Source: Deltaproteobacteria bacterium
GTDB lineage: Bacteria; Desulfobacterota; Desulfuromonadia; Desulfuromonadales; BM103
Length of the DNA stretch: 9,508 nucleotides
Reading direction: 5' to 3'
Assembly (NCBI GenBank): GCA_024636215.1
Contig: JAGXHL010000078.1
Coordinates: 1-9,508 of the forward strand
Shown here: positions 1 to 9,508 of the stretch, piece by piece
Layout: every line of letters begins with the position of its first letter
How positions within the stretch are numbered: the first letter of the stretch is position 1
Translations under genes and position numbers: made by a program
The notes under the pieces: model-generated
Databases searched by the model: none
Seen by the model: the letters and a program-made list of their open reading frames with translations, nothing else
Told to the model about the DNA's origin: nothing

Positions 1-140
1 CCTTTTTGCACGCGCGCTTCACGCGCGGCTGGGTCGGCCGTCGTGCCGCCTGGCTGTCGATCATCGGCTTTGCCGCCACCCTCTTCTGCTACCTCGGCGT
101 CAACCTGGTACTCTCCGGTCTGCACTCTTACGGCGGGTAA
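1..140 (+). CDS. ccsB: Cytochrome c biogenesis protein CcsB (ResC/CcsA type), C-terminal end, 5' truncated by window
   Basis: The frame starting at base 3 is open from the window edge and ends at TAA 138-140, leaving 45 residues. It reads [20 protein letters not shown] followed by [14 protein letters not shown], which I recognise as the conserved last transmembrane helix and tail of the CcsB/ResC subunit of system II cytochrome c maturation. In that family the integral membrane protein carries heme across the inner membrane and, with ResB/CcsA-type partners, attaches it to CXXCH motifs in the periplasm. The WWD heme-handling motif would lie upstream, outside the window, so the assignment rests on the tail alone. 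The 23 predicted hemes encoded downstream would be clients of this pathway. It is separated from the next gene by 439 bp, so it is probably not in the same operon. Confidence 0.82.
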
Positions 141-579: not shown

Positions 580-1614
580 ATGCGCTACGGTCTGTCCAGT
601 TTGTGCCTTGCGGTTTGCTGTGTTCTGGCTCTGCCGGTTTTTGCCGCCGGCTCCACGGACAAGGGCTTTGTTCTGTGGGCCGGTTCCGCTGCGGTCGAAA
701 GTTGCATTACGGCTCAATGCCATGCCATTCTCGGTCGAGCGAAGCATGTGCATGCGCCGGTTGCAGAGGGCGATTGCCTGGTCTGTCACCAAGCCACCGA
801 ACAGGCACATCCGGGCGATGGTTCGATGACCTTGATTGAAGCAGAGCCGGGCCTCTGTTTTCAATGCCACGAAAATCCAGCGGCCCAAATGGCCTATCCG
901 CATTCTGCCCTTGAAGAGGGTTGCAGCGGTTGCCACAGTCCGCATCAAGGTGCTCTGCCGAAATTTTTGTTGCAGTCCGGCGGCAAGCTCTGCCTGATCT
1001 GTCATGAAGAGGTGATGCAAGGGAAATATGTCCATGGGCCGGTCAGGGCGACCAACTGCCGGATGTGCCACGGCATTCATGGTGGCGAACATGAGTCAAT
1101 GCTGAACCTGCCCGGCAAGGACAACTGTCTGGCCTGCCATGCCGGGATCAAGGATATCATGGCTGACGCAGTCTCTCAGCACGAACCGGTTGTTAACGGT
1201 GTCTGCTGGGATTGCCATACGCCCCATACCTCGAACTTTAAACCGTTTCTCAGGGCGCATTACACGCAGGAATTATATGCTCCCTACGAGAGCAAAAACT
1301 TTGCCCTCTGCTTTGGCTGCCACGATGAAAATGCCTTTGTCTATGAGCGGACCAGCGAAGCGACCGCTTTTCGAAACCGTGATCAGAACCTGCATTATTT
1401 TCACGTGAACCGGCCGCAGAAGGGCCGCGTCTGCAAAAATTGTCATGGCGTTCATGGAGCCGATCAAAACAAGTTGCTGATGAGCAAGGTGCCTGGTTTC
1501 GGGGACTGGGAGCTGCCTCTGATCTGGGTCAGCGAAGGTGAGCGGGCAACCTGTTATGTCGGCTGTCACCGACCGAAGACTTATGACCGGCTGAAGAAGG
1601 TCAGGAATCCTTGA
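580..1614 (+). CDS. Exported 11-heme c-type cytochrome (doubled-CXXCH type)
   Basis: This 344-residue protein has an N-terminal export signal (hydrophobic residues about 5-22, cleavage likely near VFA-AG at 22-24) and no convincing lipobox. Nine canonical CXXCH heme sites start at Cys66, 93, 115, 138, 160, 183, 209, 244 and 285. Two spaced variants flank them: CX4CH at 42-48 and CX3CH at 325-330. Many sites are followed by H-containing strings such as SPH, GIH and TPH, giving bis-histidine ligands. The segment KYVHGPV before Cys160 recurs in the octaheme protein downstream, pointing to a shared fold. The likely role is a periplasmic or outer-membrane-associated electron carrier feeding an extracellular pathway. 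The ATG at 580 is preceded by a G-rich stretch at 561-566. A 354-bp gap follows before the next gene. I cannot name an orthologue. Confidence 0.9.
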   Translation: MRYGLSSLCLAVCCVLALPVFAAGSTDKGFVLWAGSAAVESCITAQCHAILGRAKHVHAPVAEGDCLVCHQATEQAHPGDGSMTLIEAEPGLCFQCHENPAAQMAYPHSALEEGCSGCHSPHQGALPKFLLQSGGKLCLICHEEVMQGKYVHGPVRATNCRMCHGIHGGEHESMLNLPGKDNCLACHAGIKDIMADAVSQHEPVVNGVCWDCHTPHTSNFKPFLRAHYTQELYAPYESKNFALCFGCHDENAFVYERTSEATAFRNRDQNLHYFHVNRPQKGRVCKNCHGVHGADQNKLLMSKVPGFGDWELPLIWVSEGERATCYVGCHRPKTYDRLKKVRNP

Positions 1615-1668
1615 TTGCGCTACGCGCGTTGAATTGTTGAATTGTTGAATTGTTGAATTGTTGAATTG
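1614..1668. repeat. REP-like palindromic element plus five tandem octamers TTGAATTG
   Basis: The element begins on the last base of the cytochrome stop codon. Bases 1614-1636 are identical over 23 bp to 4097-4119; both contain the near-palindrome GCGCTACGCGCG. From 1629 to 1668 the octamer TTGAATTG is repeated five times without error. The array is non-coding. The related element at 4091-4170 sits at the same place relative to the next cytochrome gene. Copy number of such an array may vary between strains. Confidence 0.8.
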
Positions 1669-1742
1669 CAAAACTCCGGTAGGTAGATGAGAGGACTCAA
1701 GTCGCAAAAAACAGCAAAGGCTTAATTGGCCGCAGATACAAT

Positions 1743-1800
1743 CTGACTCAGGGCAGATAGGTCAAAGACTAAAGACTTATGGTTAAAGTCTTTCAGTCAG
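1743..1800. other. Nested hairpin in the 1615-1968 gene-free stretch
   Basis: CTGACT at 1743-1748 pairs with AGTCAG at 1795-1800, and inside it AAAGACTT at 1771-1778 pairs with AAGTCTTT at 1786-1793 around a 7-base loop. No T-run follows, so it is not a standard terminator. I see no gene in 1615-1968, only this structure and the repeats listed separately. Confidence 0.35.
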
Positions 1801-1904
1801 AAGCAAAACATTACGGAACGGCCCATGGAACGCAGATGAACACAGAAAAAGCGGATCAAGCGAAAAGTCTTAAGGTTCTAACCCAGAAGCTTGATTTTTG
1901 GTTG

Positions 1905-1948
1905 ATCAGCGTTCATCAGATTTGATCAGCGTCCAATTAAGGTTTTGA
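1905..1948. repeat. Dispersed intergenic repeat, copy B (core ATCAGATTTGATC)
   Basis: It aligns with 244-288 over about 44 bases with only a few differences. It ends 20 bases before the ATG of the first NHL lipoprotein and contains the in-frame TTG at 1945, an argument against that TTG being the real start codon. The stretch just before it (CGCAGATGAACACAG near 1831) resembles the same repeat family. Confidence 0.7.
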
Positions 1949-1968
1949 TCTTGGACCGAAAGGCAGTG

Positions 1969-3063
1969 ATGATTAAAGGTGTTTTTTCTTATAGCGTATG
2001 GTTGCTGTTGGTGTTGCTGCTGTCAGCCTGCAGCAGCAGTGCGCCCGAGGTGAAAAGGCGTTTTTTCTTTCCGCCGGCGCCGGCGGAACCGAAGATTGAA
2101 TATGTTCAAGGTTACTTTTCCGATCATGACCTGAAGCCTGAGAAGAACAGTTTTTTTACAGAGTATGTGCTTGGGCAAACGCGACCCAATGCGATGTTCT
2201 CGGCGCCGGTGGATGTCGCTTCGGATGGCAAGGGGCGGGTGTTTGTCGCGGATTCAACGGCTCGTCAGGTTTTTATCCTGGACCTGGCGAATCACACCTA
2301 CCGGGTTTTATCTTCTGCCATAAAAAGCGGCGGTCTGCAGCGCAGCTTCGGGCTTCCGTTCAGTGTGACTGTTACCGACGATGGCAGGCTCTACATCGCT
2401 GATGTGGTTGCCAAGAGCGTGGACGTTTTCGATGAACAGGAGAAATATCTCTTTTCGATCGGTGACTCCGAGCTGGTCCGGCCGACTGCGGTTGCGGTCG
2501 ATACGCAGCATAAAGTGATCTATGTTCTCGATACGGCAATGCACAGACTGATGTTGTTCGATCTGCAGGGAGAGCGGCTTGGGACTCTGGGAGAGCGGGG
2601 GAATGAACCCGGTCAGTTCAATTATCCAACCGATGTTGATGTCGATGACCAGGGTCATATCTATGTGCTTGATTCCCTTAATGCCCGTGTCCAGGTTTTT
2701 GATGAGACCGGAGCCTTTTTGAGGATGTTTGGCGAACGTGGTACGGCTGAAGGCTCGTTTGAAATCCCCAAGAACCTGGCTGTTTCAAACACCGGTCAGG
2801 TTTATGTGACCGATGCCCTGGCACACAAGCTGGTTATTTTCAGTACAGAGGGAGAATTGCTGCTGCGCATCGGCGGCAAATCCGTCGTAAAAAAAGGGAT
2901 CTCGCCGGGGGGCTTCTATCTGCCTCGAGGCGTCGATATCGATCCTGCCGGCGGCCTCTGGGTGGCCGACAGTCTGAATCGGATCGTGCACCGCTTCCAA
3001 TTCCTCACGCCGCAGTATTTGAGTGAAAACCCGATTTCCGAAAGTGTTTTGCAAACTCAATAG
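1969..3063 (+). CDS. NHL-repeat six-bladed beta-propeller lipoprotein (first copy)
   Basis: The protein is 364 residues from the ATG at 1969. I prefer this start to the in-frame TTG at 1945 because GAAAGG lies five bases upstream and the TTG falls inside a dispersed repeat. A short hydrophobic segment ends in lipobox LSAC, with lipidated Cys21. There is no Asp after the Cys, so by the Lol rule it would go to the outer membrane. A linker with PPAPAEPKIEY precedes six NHL-type blades at roughly 79-105, 128-156, 171-198, 218-246, 266-292 and 318-345; typical strings are VDVASDGKGRVFVAD and VDVDDQGHIYVLD. The tail has LTPQYL, shared with the second propeller at 4212. NHL lipoproteins are common beside multiheme cytochrome genes in Geobacter relatives. 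Their exact role is not settled; scaffold or assembly is an inference. The gene lies 28 bases before the octaheme gene, so the two are probably cotranscribed. Confidence 0.88.
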   Translation: MIKGVFSYSVWLLLVLLLSACSSSAPEVKRRFFFPPAPAEPKIEYVQGYFSDHDLKPEKNSFFTEYVLGQTRPNAMFSAPVDVASDGKGRVFVADSTARQVFILDLANHTYRVLSSAIKSGGLQRSFGLPFSVTVTDDGRLYIADVVAKSVDVFDEQEKYLFSIGDSELVRPTAVAVDTQHKVIYVLDTAMHRLMLFDLQGERLGTLGERGNEPGQFNYPTDVDVDDQGHIYVLDSLNARVQVFDETGAFLRMFGERGTAEGSFEIPKNLAVSNTGQVYVTDALAHKLVIFSTEGELLLRIGGKSVVKKGISPGGFYLPRGVDIDPAGGLWVADSLNRIVHRFQFLTPQYLSENPISESVLQTQ

Positions 3064-3091
3064 ACAGTCGAAGTGTCTGGAGTCAAAAAGG

Positions 3092-4087
3092 ATGCAGTCA
3101 ATAAAACACCTGTACAAAGCGGGGTTGACGGGTTTGCTGGTGCTGTTCTTGTGCGGCAATGCCTATGCGCTGCAGCTCATCTACCCGCTCGATGGAACTT
3201 ATGTGACCACATCGAAATACCTGATCGTCAAGGGCGGCACCGACCCTTTGCTCAGCGGTTTGACAATCGAGATCAATGGCGTTAAAAGCGACCTCATCAA
3301 TATCTCGCTGGAAACTTACCGCGCCGCATTCGGCGACATGCTGGTTGTCGAGCCGAGCTTCGATCCGGGTAAAAACCGGATTATCGTCGAAGGTTATCTA
3401 GGCGATGCGAAAATGGATACCGTCACAGCCACGATTTACTATCATGATCGCTTCGACCGGGCGCCGCCAACCGATTTTTCCCAGGAGGTTTTTCATTACG
3501 CAAAGCGGGAAGAAGCTTGTGCGGGTTGCCATAACATGACGCCATCAGCCGCCGAACTGGCAAACCCCGACCCCGGAAAGAATCCCTGTGGCTCCTGTCA
3601 TGCGCGCATGCTCGACAAGGCGCACGTGCATGGGCCGGCCGGGGTCTACGAGTGCACCTACTGTCATGCGATTGACAGCCTGCCCACCAAGTACCAGGCG
3701 CGCCCCGGGGATGCCGCTCTGTGCATGGAGTGTCATGAGGACAAGCTGGAAGAATATCGCAAATCCAAGTTTGTCCACGGGCCGGTCGAAGCGGGGCTCT
3801 GCATGGTCTGTCATGATCCCCACGCCAGCGAGCAGCGGGCCCAGCTGGTAATGCCGGCTTATGAGCTGTGCGCCTCCTGTCATGCACAGGTTGCCAAACT
3901 ACCGCATGTGGCTCGTGGTTCGGGCGGCAAGCCGCATCCCTTAAAGGGTGTGGTCAACCCTGCCGGGATCGGCGAGGAATTAAGCTGCGCCAGCTGTCAT
4001 GATCCGCATGCGGCGGCATCCAGTGCGATGTTCCGCTGGGGGATCGAATCACGCATGAGCCTGTGCGGTAAGTGCCATAAAAAATAA
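3092..4087 (+). CDS. Exported octaheme c-type cytochrome with N-terminal Ig-like domain
   Basis: This 331-residue protein starts at ATG 3092, with a GGAG ribosome site at 3079-3082. In-frame codons further upstream (GTG 3023) overlap the previous gene and would bury the signal peptide. The signal peptide ends at GNAYA-LQ (about residue 26). Residues about 28-118 look like a beta-sandwich of the Ig/glucodextranase-B kind (LIYPLDGTYVTTSKYLIVKG ... NRIIVEGY). Eight CXXCH sites follow, starting at Cys143, 166, 188, 211, 237, 260, 299 and 325. The mature part has nine histidines outside these motifs, enough for bis-His ligation of all eight hemes. The VHGP-x(4-6)-CxxCH repeat is shared with the 11-heme protein. 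It is likely a periplasmic electron carrier whose Ig domain docks to a partner; the docking is inference. Confidence 0.9.
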   Translation: MQSIKHLYKAGLTGLLVLFLCGNAYALQLIYPLDGTYVTTSKYLIVKGGTDPLLSGLTIEINGVKSDLINISLETYRAAFGDMLVVEPSFDPGKNRIIVEGYLGDAKMDTVTATIYYHDRFDRAPPTDFSQEVFHYAKREEACAGCHNMTPSAAELANPDPGKNPCGSCHARMLDKAHVHGPAGVYECTYCHAIDSLPTKYQARPGDAALCMECHEDKLEEYRKSKFVHGPVEAGLCMVCHDPHASEQRAQLVMPAYELCASCHAQVAKLPHVARGSGGKPHPLKGVVNPAGIGEELSCASCHDPHAAASSAMFRWGIESRMSLCGKCHKK

Positions 4088-4090
4088 GGC

Positions 4091-4170
4091 TGTTGAATTG
4101 CGCTACGCGCGTTGAATTGCTTTAAACGATTCAACAGTTCAACGCGCGTAGCGCAATCAATAATTCAACA
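4091..4170. repeat. Large inverted repeat (REP-like) after the octaheme gene
   Basis: ATTGCGCTACGCGCGTTGAA at 4097-4116 is the perfect reverse complement of 4138-4157, a 20-bp stem with a 21-base loop. The outer hexamers TGTTGA (4091-4096) and TCAACA (4165-4170) extend it after a 7-base asymmetric bulge. The left arm plus three bases is identical to 1614-1636. It sits 4 bases after the octaheme stop codon and about 40 bases before the next gene. No T-run follows, so it may be an mRNA-stabilising or transcript-dividing structure rather than a terminator. Confidence 0.8.
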
Positions 4171-4211
4171 GGCGTCAGCCTATCTATCCAACAAAAACAG
4201 AGGTAACGACA

Positions 4212-5300
4212 ATGAACAAACCTTACAGAATCACATCCCTGCTGGCCCTGCTGGCGGTTACCATCCTTGCCGGCTGCGCTAAACCGCAGCCGCCTCGGGA
4301 AAAGGTCTACTGGCCGCCGCCGCCCAACGAGCCGAAGATGGAGTGGATTATTACTTACTCTTCGGAGGATGACTTCGAAAAGAGTGACAAGCAGATCGCC
4401 GCCGAGAAATTTTTGGGTAAAACAAAGTTCAACTTTTTTCTCAAGCCCGGTGGTGTGGCGTCTCGAGGCGACGGCGTCGTTTATGTCGCAGATCTCGATG
4501 CCAGTGAAATCCGCGTCATCGACTTCAACAACAAAACATCGACCACCTACTCCGAAAAGACGCCAGTCGCTCTGCCGGTCGGCATGACCATGGACAGCAA
4601 GGGGTCGCTGTTTGTCGCTGATGCACGGCGTAAACACGTCGTACAATTAAACCCCCAGCGCAAAGTGGTGCGGGGCTTCGGAGTCGGTGATCTGGAAAGA
4701 CCGACCTTCGTGGCTCTAGACGAAAAGCTGGGTCGTCTTTACGTGTCCGATGTGCTCAGGAACGAGGTGCTGGCTTTTGACCTGGCTACCGGGGAGAAGC
4801 TGTTTGCTTTTGGCGGCCAGGGCAGCGCAATCGGGCAGTTATATGTGCCGCAAGGAATCGCCGTAGACGATCAGGGCCGCATCTTTGTCGCCGAACAGCT
4901 CAATGCCCGCATCCAGGTCTTCGATAGTGAAGGCAAGCACCTCTACATGTTCGGTCAGCGCGGCGACAAGACTTTCAACTTCGAGGGCCCGCGCGGGCTG
5001 GCCTTCGACAGCAAAGGCAATCTGTTCGTTGCCGAGGCGCGCAAGTCGGCGTTGCTGGTTTTTCAACCGGATGGCACGCCCCTGACCTCCCTGGGTGGCA
5101 GTTCCAGTTCCCACCCCCTTGGCTTCACCATGCCGACTTCGGTCTATATCGACCGCAATGATCGTATTTATATCAGTGACGGTTTGAACCGACGCATTAC
5201 TATCTGGCAAATCTTGACTCCGGACTACCTGGCTGCGCACCCCCTGGACAGAGATGCCTTGCGCAAGATCGAGGACAAGGTCCTTCAGCTGAAGAAATAA
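4212..5300 (+). CDS. NHL-repeat six-bladed beta-propeller lipoprotein (second copy)
   Basis: This 362-residue protein starts at ATG 4212, with AGAGG at 4199-4203 as ribosome site. The signal peptide ends in lipobox LAGC (lipid on Cys22), again without Asp at +2, so outer-membrane anchoring is expected. Its order matches the first propeller: a proline-rich linker WPPPPNEPKMEW (34-45), then blades at roughly 80-105, 120-147, 163-190, 212-238, 259-285 and 307-333, then a tail with LTPDYLAAHP. Conserved strings include GIAVDDQGRIFVAEQLNARI and NLFVAEARKSALLVF. It is a divergent paralogue of 1969-3063. Context suggests an outer-membrane-attached accessory protein of the cytochrome system. No enzymatic residues can be pointed to. 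A 224-bp gap containing a sigma-54 promoter follows. Confidence 0.88.
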   Translation: MNKPYRITSLLALLAVTILAGCAKPQPPREKVYWPPPPNEPKMEWIITYSSEDDFEKSDKQIAAEKFLGKTKFNFFLKPGGVASRGDGVVYVADLDASEIRVIDFNNKTSTTYSEKTPVALPVGMTMDSKGSLFVADARRKHVVQLNPQRKVVRGFGVGDLERPTFVALDEKLGRLYVSDVLRNEVLAFDLATGEKLFAFGGQGSAIGQLYVPQGIAVDDQGRIFVAEQLNARIQVFDSEGKHLYMFGQRGDKTFNFEGPRGLAFDSKGNLFVAEARKSALLVFQPDGTPLTSLGGSSSSHPLGFTMPTSVYIDRNDRIYISDGLNRRITIWQILTPDYLAAHPLDRDALRKIEDKVLQLKK

Positions 5301-5401
5301 CGCAAGGTTGAATGCCGTTATTTGACAACGTCATATGGCCGCGCTTCGGTCGTTTGCCAAGGCTGGCGGGCAAGACTCTGCGGACCGATGCGGGCGGCGA
5401 C

Positions 5402-5445
5402 TGTGCTTTTGCACACTGATCAAAGTTGGCACATAATGTGCTTTT
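5402..5445 (+). promoter_or_regulatory. Sigma-54 promoter of the tetraheme gene with overlapping palindromes
   Basis: TGGCAC (5427-5432), five bases, then GTGCT (5438-5442) gives a perfect -24 element, the exact GG-N10-GC spacing and one mismatch in the -12 element. Transcription would start near 5453, about 70 bases before the ATG. The promoter contains GCACAT-A-ATGTGC (5429-5441), and TGTGC-TTTT-GCACA lies just upstream (5402-5415). The 9-mer TGTGCTTTT occurs at 5402 and again at 5437. These could be regulator sites. The activator is unknown. Confidence 0.72.
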
Positions 5446-5524
5446 ATTATTAGCGTAATTTGATATTGAAGCGGTAACCAGTGTGGTGCCGTAAGAAAAA
5501 CATTATGTATCTGGAGGTAGGAAA

Positions 5525-6241
5525 ATGAAGAAAGTCGTCGTCCTTGTGGCCATCGCAGCGCTGCTGGCCGCCCCCGCGTTTGCCGGGATCCGCAATTCGA
5601 AGCATGACCTGTCGTCGTCGAGCGGCATGAGCATCAGGTCCAGCGACACCAATGAGCTGTGCGTCTTCTGCCACACCCCGCACGCTGGTTCAACAGCTAC
5701 CAGCGCACCGCTCTGGAACCGTTCCCTGGGCAGCCTGACCTTCGCCGCAACAGACCTCTACAACAGTTCAACACTCCAAAGCACCTCAAAGCCAACCAGT
5801 GTTTATCAAGCTGTCAATGAGTCCGATGCCAAGCTCTGTCTCTCCTGCCACGATGGTGGCTCATTGGCCGACGGTCTGCTGAATCCACCTGCCAGCAACA
5901 ATAACGTACAGCCTAATTTTGCCTCAGGTAAAGACAAGATTACCGGTGAGTCTGACCTGCTTGAAAATACGGAAACCGTGACAGATGGCCTGAAGAATGA
6001 TCATCCGATCGGCATACCCTACACGACTGATGTAGCTTCTAATGATGGTGAGTTGTATGACCCGGCCTCCACATCGGCCATCGGCCCAGGCGCGACCTTG
6101 CCTCTGTATACGACACTCAACGGGACGGACGTCATGTGGTGTTCCACCTGTCACGATGTGCACAACCCGGACAATGGTACCCCGTTCCTGAACATGACCA
6201 ATTCCGGTTCGGCCATGTGCCTGACCTGCCACAAAAAATAG
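5525..6241 (+). CDS. OmcE-like tetraheme c-type cytochrome, probable surface or filament cytochrome
   Basis: This 238-residue protein has a clear Sec signal peptide (KKVVVLVAIAALLAAPAFA, cleavage before Gly21) and an excellent ribosome site GGAGG (5513-5517), 7 bases before the ATG. Four CXXCH sites start at Cys46, 105, 206 and 232. Besides the four heme-site histidines there are exactly four others: His27 (SKHDLS), His53 (TPH), His160 (NDHPIG) and His213 (DVHN). That is one distal ligand per heme, as expected for all bis-His ligation. Length, early KHDLS, CVFCHTPH, APLWNR, LCLSCHDG, DHPI, CSTCHDVHN and the C-terminal CLTCHKK recall OmcE, the tetraheme cytochrome that polymerises into extracellular nanowires in Geobacter sulfurreducens. 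Similarity is judged from memory, not by alignment. It has its own sigma-54 promoter and terminator, so it may be expressed at high level as a single-gene unit. Confidence 0.87.
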   Translation: MKKVVVLVAIAALLAAPAFAGIRNSKHDLSSSSGMSIRSSDTNELCVFCHTPHAGSTATSAPLWNRSLGSLTFAATDLYNSSTLQSTSKPTSVYQAVNESDAKLCLSCHDGGSLADGLLNPPASNNNVQPNFASGKDKITGESDLLENTETVTDGLKNDHPIGIPYTTDVASNDGELYDPASTSAIGPGATLPLYTTLNGTDVMWCSTCHDVHNPDNGTPFLNMTNSGSAMCLTCHKK

Positions 6242-6262
6242 ACTGATCGGTTTTTTGCGACC

Positions 6263-6300
6263 AAGAAGGCAGGAGGGTTTTCCCTCCTGCCTTTTTTATT
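6263..6300 (+). terminator. Strong intrinsic terminator after the tetraheme gene
   Basis: GGCAGGAGGG at 6268-6277 and CCCTCCTGCC at 6282-6291 form a perfect 10-bp GC-rich stem with a TTTT loop, extended by A-T pairs from 6263-6267 into the T-run at 6292-6297. It starts 22 bases after the stop codon and should end the tetraheme transcript before the beta-barrel gene. Confidence 0.93.
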
Positions 6301-6360
6301 CAGACCTGTAACCCAAGCAACGGCTATCCTCACGCTCGCTCGCTTGCGCTTTCTCAAGTC

Positions 6361-6433
6361 CGCAAAGCACGCAAAGAAAAGACTTCATTCCCTCTGTTTG
6401 AGGTTTGACTTGTCGAACTTTGCGAACTTTGCG
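6361..6433. repeat. Imperfect inverted repeat of the CGCAAAG-type intergenic family
   Basis: CGCAAAGCACGCAAAG at 6361-6376 pairs with CTTTGCGAACTTTGCG at 6418-6433 with two mismatches. Each arm is itself a doubled CGCAAAG unit. It lies in the 369-bp space between the terminator and the next promoter, and I see no gene in 6301-6560. Similar strings occur between genes in many deltaproteobacteria (from memory). Function unknown. Confidence 0.6.
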
Positions 6434-6561
6434 CGAGACAAAGAGGGTTTTGTTTTTGAATGTATTTCATCACGTTCAAACAGGTCATTTGACGAGGTTG
6501 GTTGCGGTTGTTTGGCCGGTCTGATGCGCCGCGCCGGCAAGGGTGGGGCGTTTCCGTGGCG

Positions 6562-6577
6562 TGGAACGAATTTTGCA
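6562..6577 (+). promoter_or_regulatory. Sigma-54 promoter of the outer-membrane barrel gene
   Basis: TGGAAC (6562-6567), five bases, then TTGCA (6573-6577). The GG-N10-GC spacing is exact, the -12 element is perfect and the -24 element has one mismatch to TGGCAC. Transcription would start near 6588, 23 bases before the ATG at 6611. It resembles the promoter at 5427, suggesting shared control by RpoN and an enhancer-binding activator. Confidence 0.7.
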
Positions 6578-6610
6578 ATTCGATAAAGAGCTTCTTGCTA
6601 GTAATGCGCA

Positions 6611-8836
6611 ATGATATCGTCAGGAAACCCTTTGAACCAGTTCCCTCGTATCTTTCTGCTATTCTTCCTGTTGCTCGCCCTGTGCGTGCCGCAAGCTTCG
6701 GCGCGCCTGCTGGGTGAGGTCGAGTGGGGTTACGCCCACTTCGAGCAGAGTGGCGGCGGTGACGATTACAGCGCATCGCACTTCACTCAGCGTTATTCGA
6801 TGCTCTACGACATGCAGGGGCTGCTGGGCGGCGGTCGATTAGGCGCCTACGATCTCGGTCTGGGTGCCGAATGGGCGACTTTCGACAGCGATTTTGACGG
6901 TGAAGAGCTGTCCCGGGATGCCTTCAAGCTGCTCTACGAAGGACATGTGCAGATTGCTCCTGGTGCCCTGCCGTTTCGGCTCAACGCCTACAGCTACGAT
7001 CTGAGAAAGATGAGTTTTGGTACCTCTTCGATGTCGGGATTGATCAATCCCGATATTGTTTCGGATCTTTATAACGGTCAGACCATCATCTCCGGTGTGC
7101 AATTCATGGCCGGCATCCGCAATGGCAGCTACCTGGGCCAGTACCGCGACATCCTGTCGCAGTGGCCGCGCCTGCTGGTTGATTACCGCGATGTTTACCA
7201 CCGCGATCTCAAGGCACGAAACCCGCAGGAATATCGTGACAGCAACCTGGCTTTCGTCTCCCTCAACAAGAAGGACAACTGGTTCCACTACCGTCTGCAT
7301 ACCCACACCGATTACCAGCGCCCGGAGGAAAACAGCAGTGAGAGCGTCATCATGCTCGGCACCATCGACCATACCCTCAAGCGCCAGTGGATCAACCTGA
7401 CCAACTGGATCCGCATTTCCGTGGACGGTTCCTACACGGTCACTGAGGAGACCTGGGATGACAGGGAAACCAACCGTTTCGATGTCAACTTCTTTACCAC
7501 CATGCAGCGCAACGGTTTCTCCGGCGGCAGCTATGCAAACCTGCAACGCGTTCAGCGCGGCGACTTTTTGGAACACACCTTCGATCTGCCGATCTATCTC
7601 AGCAACCGTATCAACCCGGACACCAACCTGCGCTCGACCTTCGAACTGTGGCGCAACAAGGAAACCCGCTCGATCTGGAGCGAAGAGCTCAGCGAGGATG
7701 CCTACTACGCCAGGGCTTTGCTCGAAGGCAACCAGCGTGGCCGAGTGCTGGTGACACCCAGCATGGAGATGGAGCTGCATACCGGAGACGTTGGCGAGGG
7801 TGAAGCGGTGCGCGGCCGGGTCGAGGTCAGCAGCAACCCCAAGCGGCGGCAGAATCCGGCCTGGCATGGCATGGGCTCCCTGGCCAGGTTCGGCGGGGTG
7901 GGGGAAGATAACGAAGATACCAGTCTCTGGGAAGGAGAGCTATCAGGCAGTACGGACTTTCGCCTGGGCAATACCATGCGCATTGGCGGCCAGCAGTATC
8001 TGCTTTACGGGTCCGGCTCCTACGAGTCACGGGTAACCCACTTCATGAGCTCCGCATCGGCCGGTGGCTTCGGCCGCTATAGCAGTCGCGACTCGCAGAC
8101 TGTCGACGGCTCCCTGCTGCGCAGTGAAACTAACCTGTATTTTGAACACACTTCGCCGGCGCGGGTGCAGAATCGCTTTCAGTTGAACTACAAGTTTGAA
8201 GATGGCGATGCCCACCGCCTTTATAATCTTGAGCTCACTCACCAGCTCAGTTACCAGTCACGTTGGTGGCGGGTTCGGTTTGAAAACCTCTATGCTACCG
8301 GCGATGACGTTAACAGCAATACTTCCCCGGTCAGCGATCTCGGGCAAAGCTTCATCCAGTCCTCCCGCGCGGGGCGCTTCGAGCATCGAGGCCTGGTCGA
8401 GTTCCTCCCCAACAATTACTGGCGGGCGCGTCTGGAGGAAAGTTACTACTGGGGTGAAGATTCGGCCGGGCAGAAAAGTCAGTTCATCACGGTCAGGCAG
8501 TCTGTGCAACGCACCTTCTACACCTTCGGTGGACTGCGGCGCAAGCGTGGCGAGGTGAGCCAGTCTGTGCTGTATGAACATTATCTTAATGACAACGACA
8601 GACAGGCTGTGACGTTTACCCTGACCGGTGACTACTACCCGAACACCTGGTGGCGGTTGGGGGCGAGCCTGGATTACTACTACCGCGATTTCGCCACCGA
8701 CACTCTCTTTTACACCCTGACCACGGGGATCGATTTCCCCATGTTCATGGTCGATTTTCGCTACCGTTACGGCGCCGAGCAAGATACCGATGTGGTGGCC
8801 CATCGCTACGAAGTCAATGTCAGAAAGACCTTCTGA
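6611..8836 (+). CDS. Outer-membrane beta-barrel protein, putative porin of a cytochrome conduit or export pore
   Basis: This is a 741-residue protein with a signal peptide (hydrophobic FLLFFLLLALCV, cleavage likely after QASA at about residue 31). The rest alternates polar and aromatic/hydrophobic residues in short strands with many Tyr, Trp and Arg (RYSMLYDMQG, WWRVRFENLY, WWRLGASLDYYYRDF). It ends in Phe (YEVNVRKTF), the BAM recognition signature of barrels. No heme motif and no MtrB-like N-terminal CxxC are present. The size fits a barrel of more than 20 strands, in the range of the porins that enclose cytochromes in MtrB/OmbB-type conduits. Family membership is inferred from context. ATG 6611 has a poor ribosome site; an in-frame TTG at 6632 has AGGA at 6622-6625, six bases upstream, and could be the true start (734 residues). 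The gene has its own sigma-54 promoter. Confidence 0.8.
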   Translation: MISSGNPLNQFPRIFLLFFLLLALCVPQASARLLGEVEWGYAHFEQSGGGDDYSASHFTQRYSMLYDMQGLLGGGRLGAYDLGLGAEWATFDSDFDGEELSRDAFKLLYEGHVQIAPGALPFRLNAYSYDLRKMSFGTSSMSGLINPDIVSDLYNGQTIISGVQFMAGIRNGSYLGQYRDILSQWPRLLVDYRDVYHRDLKARNPQEYRDSNLAFVSLNKKDNWFHYRLHTHTDYQRPEENSSESVIMLGTIDHTLKRQWINLTNWIRISVDGSYTVTEETWDDRETNRFDVNFFTTMQRNGFSGGSYANLQRVQRGDFLEHTFDLPIYLSNRINPDTNLRSTFELWRNKETRSIWSEELSEDAYYARALLEGNQRGRVLVTPSMEMELHTGDVGEGEAVRGRVEVSSNPKRRQNPAWHGMGSLARFGGVGEDNEDTSLWEGELSGSTDFRLGNTMRIGGQQYLLYGSGSYESRVTHFMSSASAGGFGRYSSRDSQTVDGSLLRSETNLYFEHTSPARVQNRFQLNYKFEDGDAHRLYNLELTHQLSYQSRWWRVRFENLYATGDDVNSNTSPVSDLGQSFIQSSRAGRFEHRGLVEFLPNNYWRARLEESYYWGEDSAGQKSQFITVRQSVQRTFYTFGGLRRKRGEVSQSVLYEHYLNDNDRQAVTFTLTGDYYPNTWWRLGASLDYYYRDFATDTLFYTLTTGIDFPMFMVDFRYRYGAEQDTDVVAHRYEVNVRKTF

Positions 8837-8864
8837 GTTTTGCTTCGGAGGCAAAGGCGCTATC

Positions 8865-8960
8865 GGACGCAGATCAAATCTGATAAACGCTGATTTTAAA
8901 AGCGAATCTTATGGCTTTTGCGTTTGCCTGATCCGGTGTGATCAGATTTGATCCGCGGCC
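8865..8960. repeat. Dispersed intergenic repeat, copy C, as an inverted pair
   Basis: Bases 8865-8894 and 8931-8960 are 30-base arms that pair with 7 mismatches. The 13-base core GATCAAATCTGAT / ATCAGATTTGATC is perfect and is the same core as at 244-288 and 1905-1948. It occupies most of the 156-bp gap between the barrel gene and the glycosyltransferase and could form a hairpin with a 36-base loop. No T-run follows it. Confidence 0.7.
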
Positions 8961-8992
8961 AAATAAAGTTTTTCCCCGGAGAATCAACCCTC

Positions 8993-9508
8993 GTGTTCCT
9001 TTCTGTTGTCATTCCTATCTACAACGAAGCGCCCAATTTGCAGGATTTATGCAGCGAAGTGGTTGCGGCCCTCGAAACTTTCGACTTCGAACTGATCCTG
9101 GTCGACGACGGCAGCCGCGACGAGTCTTTTGCCATCATGCAGGGGCTGGCCGCCGATGAACGGCGCCTCAAGGTGATCCGCCTGCGCCGCAACTTCGGCC
9201 AGACCGCCGCCATGGCGGCCGGTTTCAGCGCCGCTTCGGGTGAGGTGATCGTGCCCATGGACGGCGATCGGCAGAATAACCCGACCGACATCCCACGGCT
9301 ACTGGCCAAGCTTGAAGAGGGCTTTGATGTGGTCTCCGGTTGGCGCAAGAGTCGCAAAGACGCCTTCATTACCCGCAAGCTGCCCTCCCTGCTTGCCAAC
9401 CGCCTGATCTCGCGCATGACCCATGTTCCTCTGCACGATTACGGCTGCACCCTCAAAGCCTACCGCAAGGAGGTGCTCGACCAGGTGCGCCTGTACTGTG
9501 AACTGCAC
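8993..9508 (+). CDS. Family 2 glycosyltransferase (DPM1/GtrB/ArnC-like), N-terminal part, 3' truncated by window
   Basis: The GTG start at 8993 has GGAGA (8978-8982) ten bases upstream, and the frame stays open to the window end (172 residues). The N-terminus VFLSVVIPIYNEAPNLQDL, the LVDDGSRD motif (37-43) and MDGDRQNNPTDIP (89-101, holding the metal-binding D-x-D) are hallmarks of GT-A fold family 2 transferases. RRNFGQTAAMAAGF and HDYGCTLKAYRKEV are typical of the branch that moves a sugar from a nucleotide donor to polyprenyl phosphate at the inner membrane. C-terminal membrane helices, which would confirm a GtrB/ArnC type, are beyond the window. It probably belongs to a surface polysaccharide or lipid A modification locus unrelated to the cytochromes. 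The preceding inverted repeat separates it from the barrel gene. Confidence 0.88.
   Translation, partial: MFLSVVIPIYNEAPNLQDLCSEVVAALETFDFELILVDDGSRDESFAIMQGLAADERRLKVIRLRRNFGQTAAMAAGFSAASGEVIVPMDGDRQNNPTDIPRLLAKLEEGFDVVSGWRKSRKDAFITRKLPSLLANRLISRMTHVPLHDYGCTLKAYRKEVLDQVRLYCELH

Follow-up and report, generated by a model that had tools for sequence, protein, structure and literature searches.

In Geobacter sulfurreducens, the cytochrome genes GSU0615 and GSU0616 lie beside omcE (GSU0618), and gsu0615-0616-0617 have been predicted to form one unit while omcE was predicted to be monocistronic (PMC1829397). Knock-out of omcE decreased U(VI) reduction by 45% in the same report, which we count in favour of the reading put forward below, and OmcE filaments have been described as extensively glycosylated (PMC9473688). 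The osc genes, companions of omcS, have reported roles in folding, secretion and morphology (Shen et al. 2025, as cited in PMC13194489 and PMC12977616). Here, we analysed a stretch of 9,508 nucleotides from the metagenome-type record of a Deltaproteobacteria bacterium (contig JAGXHL010000078.1; 'the window' throughout), which carries six consecutive genes, designated A to F, that include a tetraheme cytochrome of the OmcE family. We conclude that this gene set very probably represents the usual omcE locus of its lineage, not a separate new assembly, and that on balance it is probably a nanowire locus of the omcE type, whose genes would be dedicated to maturing, exporting, anchoring and feeding a tetraheme filament outside the cell.

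The six genes are plus-strand open reading frames (ORFs) at 580-8836. An earlier note on this DNA had described them as encoding only exported or outer-membrane parts, namely 23 predicted hemes, two outer-membrane-type propeller lipoproteins, a small OmcE-like subunit and one large barrel, and the ORFs, their coordinates, the heme motifs and the matches given below bear this description out. Gene A (580-1614) encodes an MtrA-like cytochrome of 344 residues with 11 predicted hemes, gene C (3092-4087) an octaheme cytochrome with eight CXXCH motifs (PF09699, E = 2e-27) in which about 115 residues separate the signal peptide from the first heme, and gene E (5525-6241) a tetraheme filament-type cytochrome with four CXXCH motifs. 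Genes B (1969-3063; PF01436, E = 1.1e-26) and D (4212-5300; PF01436, E = 3.7e-27) encode paralogous NHL beta-propeller lipoproteins, 35% identical to each other, with the lipoboxes LSAC-S and LAGC-A, respectively; lipoboxes were judged by eye from the sequences rather than with SignalP, and by the same inspection none of the cytochromes A, C and E has a typical one. Gene F (6611-8836) encodes a predicted large outer-membrane barrel of 741 residues. For B, the ATG at 1969 is probably a likelier start than the listed TTG at 1945, and for C the ATG at 3092 is probably likelier than the listed GTG at 3023; with these starts B and C therefore do not overlap.

Searching the PDB with phmmer, we found that E matches OmcE (7tfs_A) at E = 1.8e-32 over residues 6-238 of its 238, and by this full-length sequence homology E belongs to the OmcE filament cytochrome family. 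Four motif histidines and four other histidines of E were conserved in 100% of 75 sequences, and the latter, the distal ligands H27, H53, H160 and H213, align with those of OmcE. Thus E is homologous to OmcE of G. sulfurreducens over its full length and shares all eight heme-ligating histidines with it, and in both organisms cytochrome genes stand beside the omcE-type gene. As a separate observation, the closest solved relative of E is 9yuq_N, deposited as a 'putative multiheme cytochrome c' with 16 chains, which is closer than OmcE (E = 7.4e-40 over residues 1-238 of 238).

The heme sites of the two larger cytochromes were examined in the same way. Gene A has nine CXXCH motifs, a CX4CH at residue 42 and a CX3CH at residue 325, and these odd motifs are real and not due to chance: C42, C47 and H48 as well as C325, C329 and H330 did not vary in an alignment of 26 sequences, the window's own included. 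In this alignment the spacing at the first odd site ranged from CX1CH to CX4CH, and the C-terminal CX3CH was present in 58 of the 59 A-type ORFs of the regions fetched below. Eleven motif histidines and 11 other histidines of A were each at least 95% conserved in 43 sequences, which is the number required for 11 bis-histidine hemes. In C, eight motif and seven other histidines were at least 95% conserved, and an eighth non-motif ligand was not found at this level among the 74 sequences aligned.

To follow the gene set through related genomes, we used a profile of F (A1), which was built from 40 sequences and detected 50 loci in genome contigs titled Desulfuromonadales-type, Geobacter-type or plain Deltaproteobacteria; an E-type tetraheme gene was present in 46 of them. 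F was found in 80 of the 277 genomes of the Geotalea class, which we defined through genome G001, the holder of locus L025 (Geotalea sp. SG265), and whose name we take to be Desulfuromonadia. G. sulfurreducens was not found among these 277 genomes (best OmcE identity 64%). From 77 of the F genomes 80 regions were fetched and their genes labelled by our own bit-score thresholds, leaving out F fragments in G071, G138 and G215 and the fragment contigs G015:C217, G145:C243 and G237:C14. In the 57 regions with at least 7 kb upstream (the 23 of 80 with less were not counted), C and an NHL gene each shared the strand of F in all 57, as did E in 53 and A in 51; all four occurred together in 47, and two NHL genes in 35. 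With at least 2.5 kb upstream required, E lay in the region in 73 of 74 cases and on the same strand in 69. Writing N for an NHL gene, the same-strand orders were A-N-C-N-E-F (16 regions), A-C-N-E-N-F (16), A-C-N-E-F (12) and C-N-E-F (6), and more rarely A-N-C-F with E inverted nearby (4), A-N-C-E-N-F (2) and A-N-C-F-E-N (1). The window has the order A-B-C-D-E-F and Geobacter-type loci the order (A)-C-NHL-E-(NHL)-F. The earlier note had held that homologues scattered independently through other genomes would speak against a module; instead, loci titled Desulfuromonadales, Geobacter and Geotalea agree in gene order and strand even where F is only 25% identical, and the gene set is co-conserved. 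Its most constant part is C-NHL-E-F, and this core suggests that F works for E, by exporting or anchoring it, no less than for A. In L010, L011 and L013, and also in L123, L125, L127 and L132, the order A-N-C-F is intact, but the E-NHL pair has the opposite orientation and is found beyond F.

The converse search gave a matching picture. Among the class genomes, 92 had an OmcE match at E <=1e-25, a strict cut of which 14 of the 80 F genomes fall short. Where the best OmcE match was OmcE-sized (an open frame below 320 residues), 65 of 69 genomes had F, and where it lay in a longer frame, 1 of 23 did. The F gene set may therefore mark OmcE-type wires better than the cytochrome alone. Across the phylum, 14 of 395 genomes matched the F profile, 11 of which were class members already counted. 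Of the others, G354 lies outside the class and has a remote copy in the same order, C8-NHL-E4-barrel (L199, 4216-9929; barrel of 696 residues), while in G421 and G394 the profile matched OscE-type barrels of osc-type clusters at profile positions 5-59 only.

One version of the locus has already been partly described. In Geoalkalibacter ferrihydriticus, the genes Ga0056053_02426-02431 encode MtoA-like cytochromes, an OmcE homologue and two NHL proteins, with mtoB lacking; the locus was read as an Fe(II)-oxidation set, and the parts of that report available do not mention the adjoining barrel (PMC12016550). We found an F homologue (P0059, SAMN05660860_02425) and an OmcE-type protein (P0162) of this species on one contig, and L107 (G045:C1), which we equate with the published locus by inference as the locus-tag prefixes differ, has the order A17-NHL-C8-NHL-E4-F, barrel included. 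Compared by description only, the Desulfovibrio ferrophilus clusters DFE_0448-0451 and DFE_0461-0464 likewise place proposed outer-membrane cytochromes beside NHL proteins, and no porin-cytochrome conduit is assigned to them in the parts of the source seen (PMC9769857). The literature searched, to which Wang 2022 and Shen 2025 did not belong, contained no paper naming an omcE cluster, operon, locus or companions, or OmcE secretion.

As for the barrel, the AlphaFold2 model of F had a mean predicted local distance difference test score (pLDDT) of 89.5 and a predicted template-modelling score of 0.71 and consisted of nearly all strands, 34 long ones being counted from DSSP when two short ones (135-139 and 149-154) were set aside. 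By this model, F is a predicted barrel-type protein. It belongs to no known sequence family: no Pfam or NCBIfam match was found up to E 0.1, the PDB searched by sequence gave only a chance match (E 1.6), and a plasmid search with F gave none. Homologues of F numbered 138 at E <=0.001 among 7992 scored candidates, and their invariant columns concentrate at about residues 117-272. The first Foldseek row was MtrB (6r2q_B, E = 6.7e-7, TM score 0.25), with the next rows nearly tied, and in a second alignment MtrB superposed on F with a root-mean-square deviation (rmsd) of 5.8 over 344 residues, the other 49 listed rows giving 8.7-14.9. The nearest large-barrel analogue of F is thus MtrB, by modelled fold only; absence of a family from this fold list excludes nothing.

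The osc-type clusters offered a second comparison. L191 (1907-14087), L194 and L200, in which osc labels were assigned from gene order, contain a propeller lipoprotein, a barrel of about 750 residues, small lipoprotein-type genes, a peptidyl-prolyl isomerase (PPIase) and 26-heme and 16-heme cytochromes, and L191 and L194 also a hexaheme cytochrome. Like the present set, L191 and L194 thus unite in one block a filament-type cytochrome, a propeller lipoprotein, a barrel of about 745 residues and large multiheme cytochromes. Unlike it, they have a PPIase, small lipoprotein-type genes and a hexaheme wire, and their propeller is YncE-like, whereas B and D are propeller lipoproteins of the NHL kind. 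No PPIase (OscH) was found among the seven window proteins scanned, while L191 has a Rotamase_2 match at 1.2e-26. Given the secretion and morphology roles reported for osc genes, the parallel suggests that F serves the export or anchoring of E.

Osc barrels surfaced in the phylum-wide search, which was not aimed at osc clusters, and this is a notable coincidence; their per-genome E-values to the F profile (7.9e-5 and 7.8e-4) are modest and the two clusters are close relatives. A hidden Markov model (HMM) of the motif, covering F residues 31-72 without the signal peptide, found the same two OscE-type barrels (6.4e-7 and 1.7e-5) among 5335 ORFs and otherwise only F-family ORFs, the next non-F match having an E of 2.0 and the best of the reversed ORFs an E of 1. 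The similarity between F and the OscE barrel is confined to this N-terminal motif and is not symmetrical. Full-length homology of F to OscE was considered and not accepted, although hhalign gave 75% (E 2.5e-5) over 48 columns that include the signal peptides, or 63 columns without realignment, with reversed controls at 0.5-0.6%.

Taken together, these findings suggest that the genes form a kit dedicated to making protein wires outside the cell and supplying them with electrons, and the following course is conceivable. The cytochromes would pass through Sec and receive heme from the adjacent System II lyase. E would cross the outer membrane through F or be nucleated at F, and A and/or C would pass electrons from periplasmic carriers to the filament base, A possibly sitting inside or below F in analogy to MtrA in MtrB. 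The propeller lipoproteins B and D could work at the outer membrane, scaffolding, anchoring or chaperoning the filament as it grows, for which OscD, reported to affect the morphology of OmcS filaments, serves as a model. The GT2 glycosyltransferase encoded downstream may help to decorate E, because OmcE filaments have been reported to be extensively glycosylated.

Several results weigh against the proposal of a dedicated nanowire locus. In the available parts of the G. sulfurreducens literature, disruption of GSU0616 raised reduction rates, although it was uncomplemented (PMC1829397), deletion of omcE left Fe(III) oxide reduction and current unimpaired, and OmcE filaments were suggested to be an artefact of the mutant (PMC11077965). 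A was absent from the locus in 6 of the 57 well-covered regions (G144, G146, G147, G148, G152 and G154). An A-profile search recovered an A-like gene away from the locus in three of these six genomes; the copies G146:C1:901080-902036 and G147:C60:254611-255225 have one in-frame stop each and may be decaying, G148 has a match at G148:C1:1192268-1193575, with open frames of 462 and 424 residues in this genome, and in G144, G152 and G154 no A-profile match reached the C-terminal site. The AlphaFold2 model of A was poor (pLDDT 59.5). For F, 187 PDB chains matched in Foldseek at E <=0.001, so that the likeness to MtrB is generic, and by Z MtrB came 38th among the rows shown (14.6 versus 17.7 for BtuB), behind TonB-dependent receptors and porins. 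In the comparison with osc, the third OscE-type barrel (L191) reached only E 7.3 with the motif HMM, an OscE HMM found no F up to E 10, and hhalign fell to 0.7% when the signal peptides were omitted, for which reason we keep F/OscE homology as a lead only. We know of no experimental work that addresses F, C or the propellers.

Of the other explanations, the one that survives best, though we regard it as a tentative possibility, is that the locus is a conduit first, with A inside F as MtrA is in MtrB, E as the extracellular terminal in the place of MtrC, and export provided elsewhere. A appears MtrA-like, both by sequence (6r2q_A in phmmer against the PDB, 5.9e-8) and in its predicted fold, for which 6r2q_A was the sole Foldseek match at E <=0.001 (4.5e-5, from the low-confidence model, which was used for Foldseek matching only). 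Its 344 residues compare with 333 of the 6r2q chain and its 11 conserved sites are of the bis-histidine type; against TIGR03508 it scored 107.9 bits, below the cut-off of 192.2. F adds MtrB as its first Foldseek row, and among the 50 rows shown none has a lower rmsd. In these two parts the locus may resemble MtrCAB/MtoAB, from which it differs in that no MtrC-like surface cytochrome is encoded in the window (none of A, C and E passed the OmcA/MtrC family cut-off), that two of the 11 sites of A are non-canonical, and that F has no Pfam match. OmcB is an outward-facing lipoprotein cytochrome. The barrel and octaheme cytochrome of OmbB-OmaB-OmcB have possible counterparts here, and a lipoprotein cytochrome is not evident by eye among the six genes. 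The Oet conduit similarly combines a barrel and a periplasmic multiheme cytochrome with a nearby filament cytochrome (OetABI with OmcX and OmcS homologues), and its OetB is an outward-facing lipoprotein cytochrome (PMC10553843), of which again none is evident in this set. Against a conduit first, F stays in the 6 of 57 regions where A has left the locus, as do C, NHL and E, with an A-like gene kept elsewhere in three of these genomes; moreover, 17 of the 59 A-type ORFs have 14-23 CXXCH motifs, more than a simple plug needs.

A bolder form of the nanowire proposal, which we hold to be rather unlikely, makes F the outer-membrane translocon of a second, PPIase-free nanowire machine: a distant OscE relative of about 34 strands would secrete heme-loaded OmcE subunits while holding or docking A or C, the propellers would form a collar, and the glycosyltransferase would insulate the wire. 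If this were true, one pore would both build the wire and electrify it.

It is improbable that the locus is a generic island of surface cytochromes, in which co-regulated exported redox genes stand near maturation genes without sharing a machine and F is a porin for something else. Physical interaction among the parts is presumed, and a terminator-like hairpin (6268-6291, plus strand) followed by a T-run (6292-6297) lies directly 3' of E. The fold of 6242-6305 has a computed energy of -31.6 kcal/mol (z -6.79; none of 200 shuffled sequences folded as stably), while the hairpin is absent from the output of a consensus terminator scan. Because this strong terminator-like hairpin separates E from F, the cluster is probably transcribed as more than one unit. 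Also in favour of an island, L123, L125, L127 and L132 carry E and an NHL gene in the orientation opposite to F, the surroundings of F in L133 yielded no E, and the best Z rows of F are TonB-dependent receptors. On the other side, the E-NHL pair still adjoins F in all four inverted regions, order and strand are kept across Desulfuromonadales, Geobacter and Geotalea loci and in the remote copy beyond the class, and F accompanies OmcE-sized proteins and not their longer homologues. The earlier note had named an unrelated transporter as a threat to its module idea; F has no sequence match to a transporter family, but it may nevertheless have an unrelated transport role, because the structures it resembles in fold are barrels of a generic kind, some of them TonB-dependent receptors. 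A module for inward electron uptake, which has been put forward for the locus of Geoalkalibacter growing on iron metal, is likewise improbable: although the OmcE-homologue locus has been named as the likeliest basis of Fe(II) oxidation in G. ferrihydriticus (PMC12016550, as far as its text was available), that proposal rested on MtoA similarity, heme chains are reversible and the sequence reveals no direction.

The neighbours of the set extend it on both sides. At the left edge of the window, bases 3-140 (plus strand), which the earlier note had not listed, encode the C-terminal 45 residues of a CcsA/ResC protein of System II cytochrome c maturation whose gene runs off the edge (PF01578, E 3.4e-8, 33.8 bits versus a cut-off of 29.9, profile positions 172-212 of 212). 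Of the 50 regions that reach 9.5 kb or more upstream, 42 have ResB and 42 have CcsA, both preceding the set, and a hand tally placed a triheme Ppc-type gene ahead of ResB in 20 of the 80 regions, the position that ppcA presumably has in G. sulfurreducens. ResB/CcsA stand before an A with unusual heme motifs (window 3-140; L021, L025). They may be a dedicated heme lyase; their persistence where A is gone from the locus speaks against this idea. At the right edge, gene G (8948-9508, plus strand; open at the edge, start uncertain) encodes a GT2 glycosyltransferase (PF00535, 2.5e-35), and a same-strand homologue was present in 38 of 58 regions that extend 5 kb or more downstream, and in 6 of the 10 that extend 1.5-5 kb; a role in filament glycosylation is a guess. 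The set differs from the six-gene module proposed earlier in that its most constant part is C-NHL-E-F, A is missing from some loci, and ResB/CcsA and the glycosyltransferase are frequent members too.

The intergenic gaps of the window contain a dispersed repeat (core ATCAGATTTGATC-GCG--CC) in direct copies at 236-285, 1897-1946 and 8923-8972 and an inverted copy at 8862-8894. A second repeat, ATTGCGCTACGCGCGTTGAATTG, directly follows A and C (1605-1649, 4097-4119 and 4122-4166); after C it forms a 23-nt inverted pair with a 15-nt spacer, and after A it is trailed by tandem TTGAATTG units. Searches of the window for tRNA genes and Rfam families gave nothing.

The set bears on how a wire is exported and how its base is supplied with electrons; for OmcS, an assembly cluster has already been reported (as cited in PMC13194489 and PMC12977616). 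Compact, strongly conserved and equipped with a barrel of its own, the gene set around OmcE provides named genes for genetics. Because conserved CX4CH and CX3CH sites occur next to a System II lyase, it also offers a case in which to study how heme is attached at unusual motifs.

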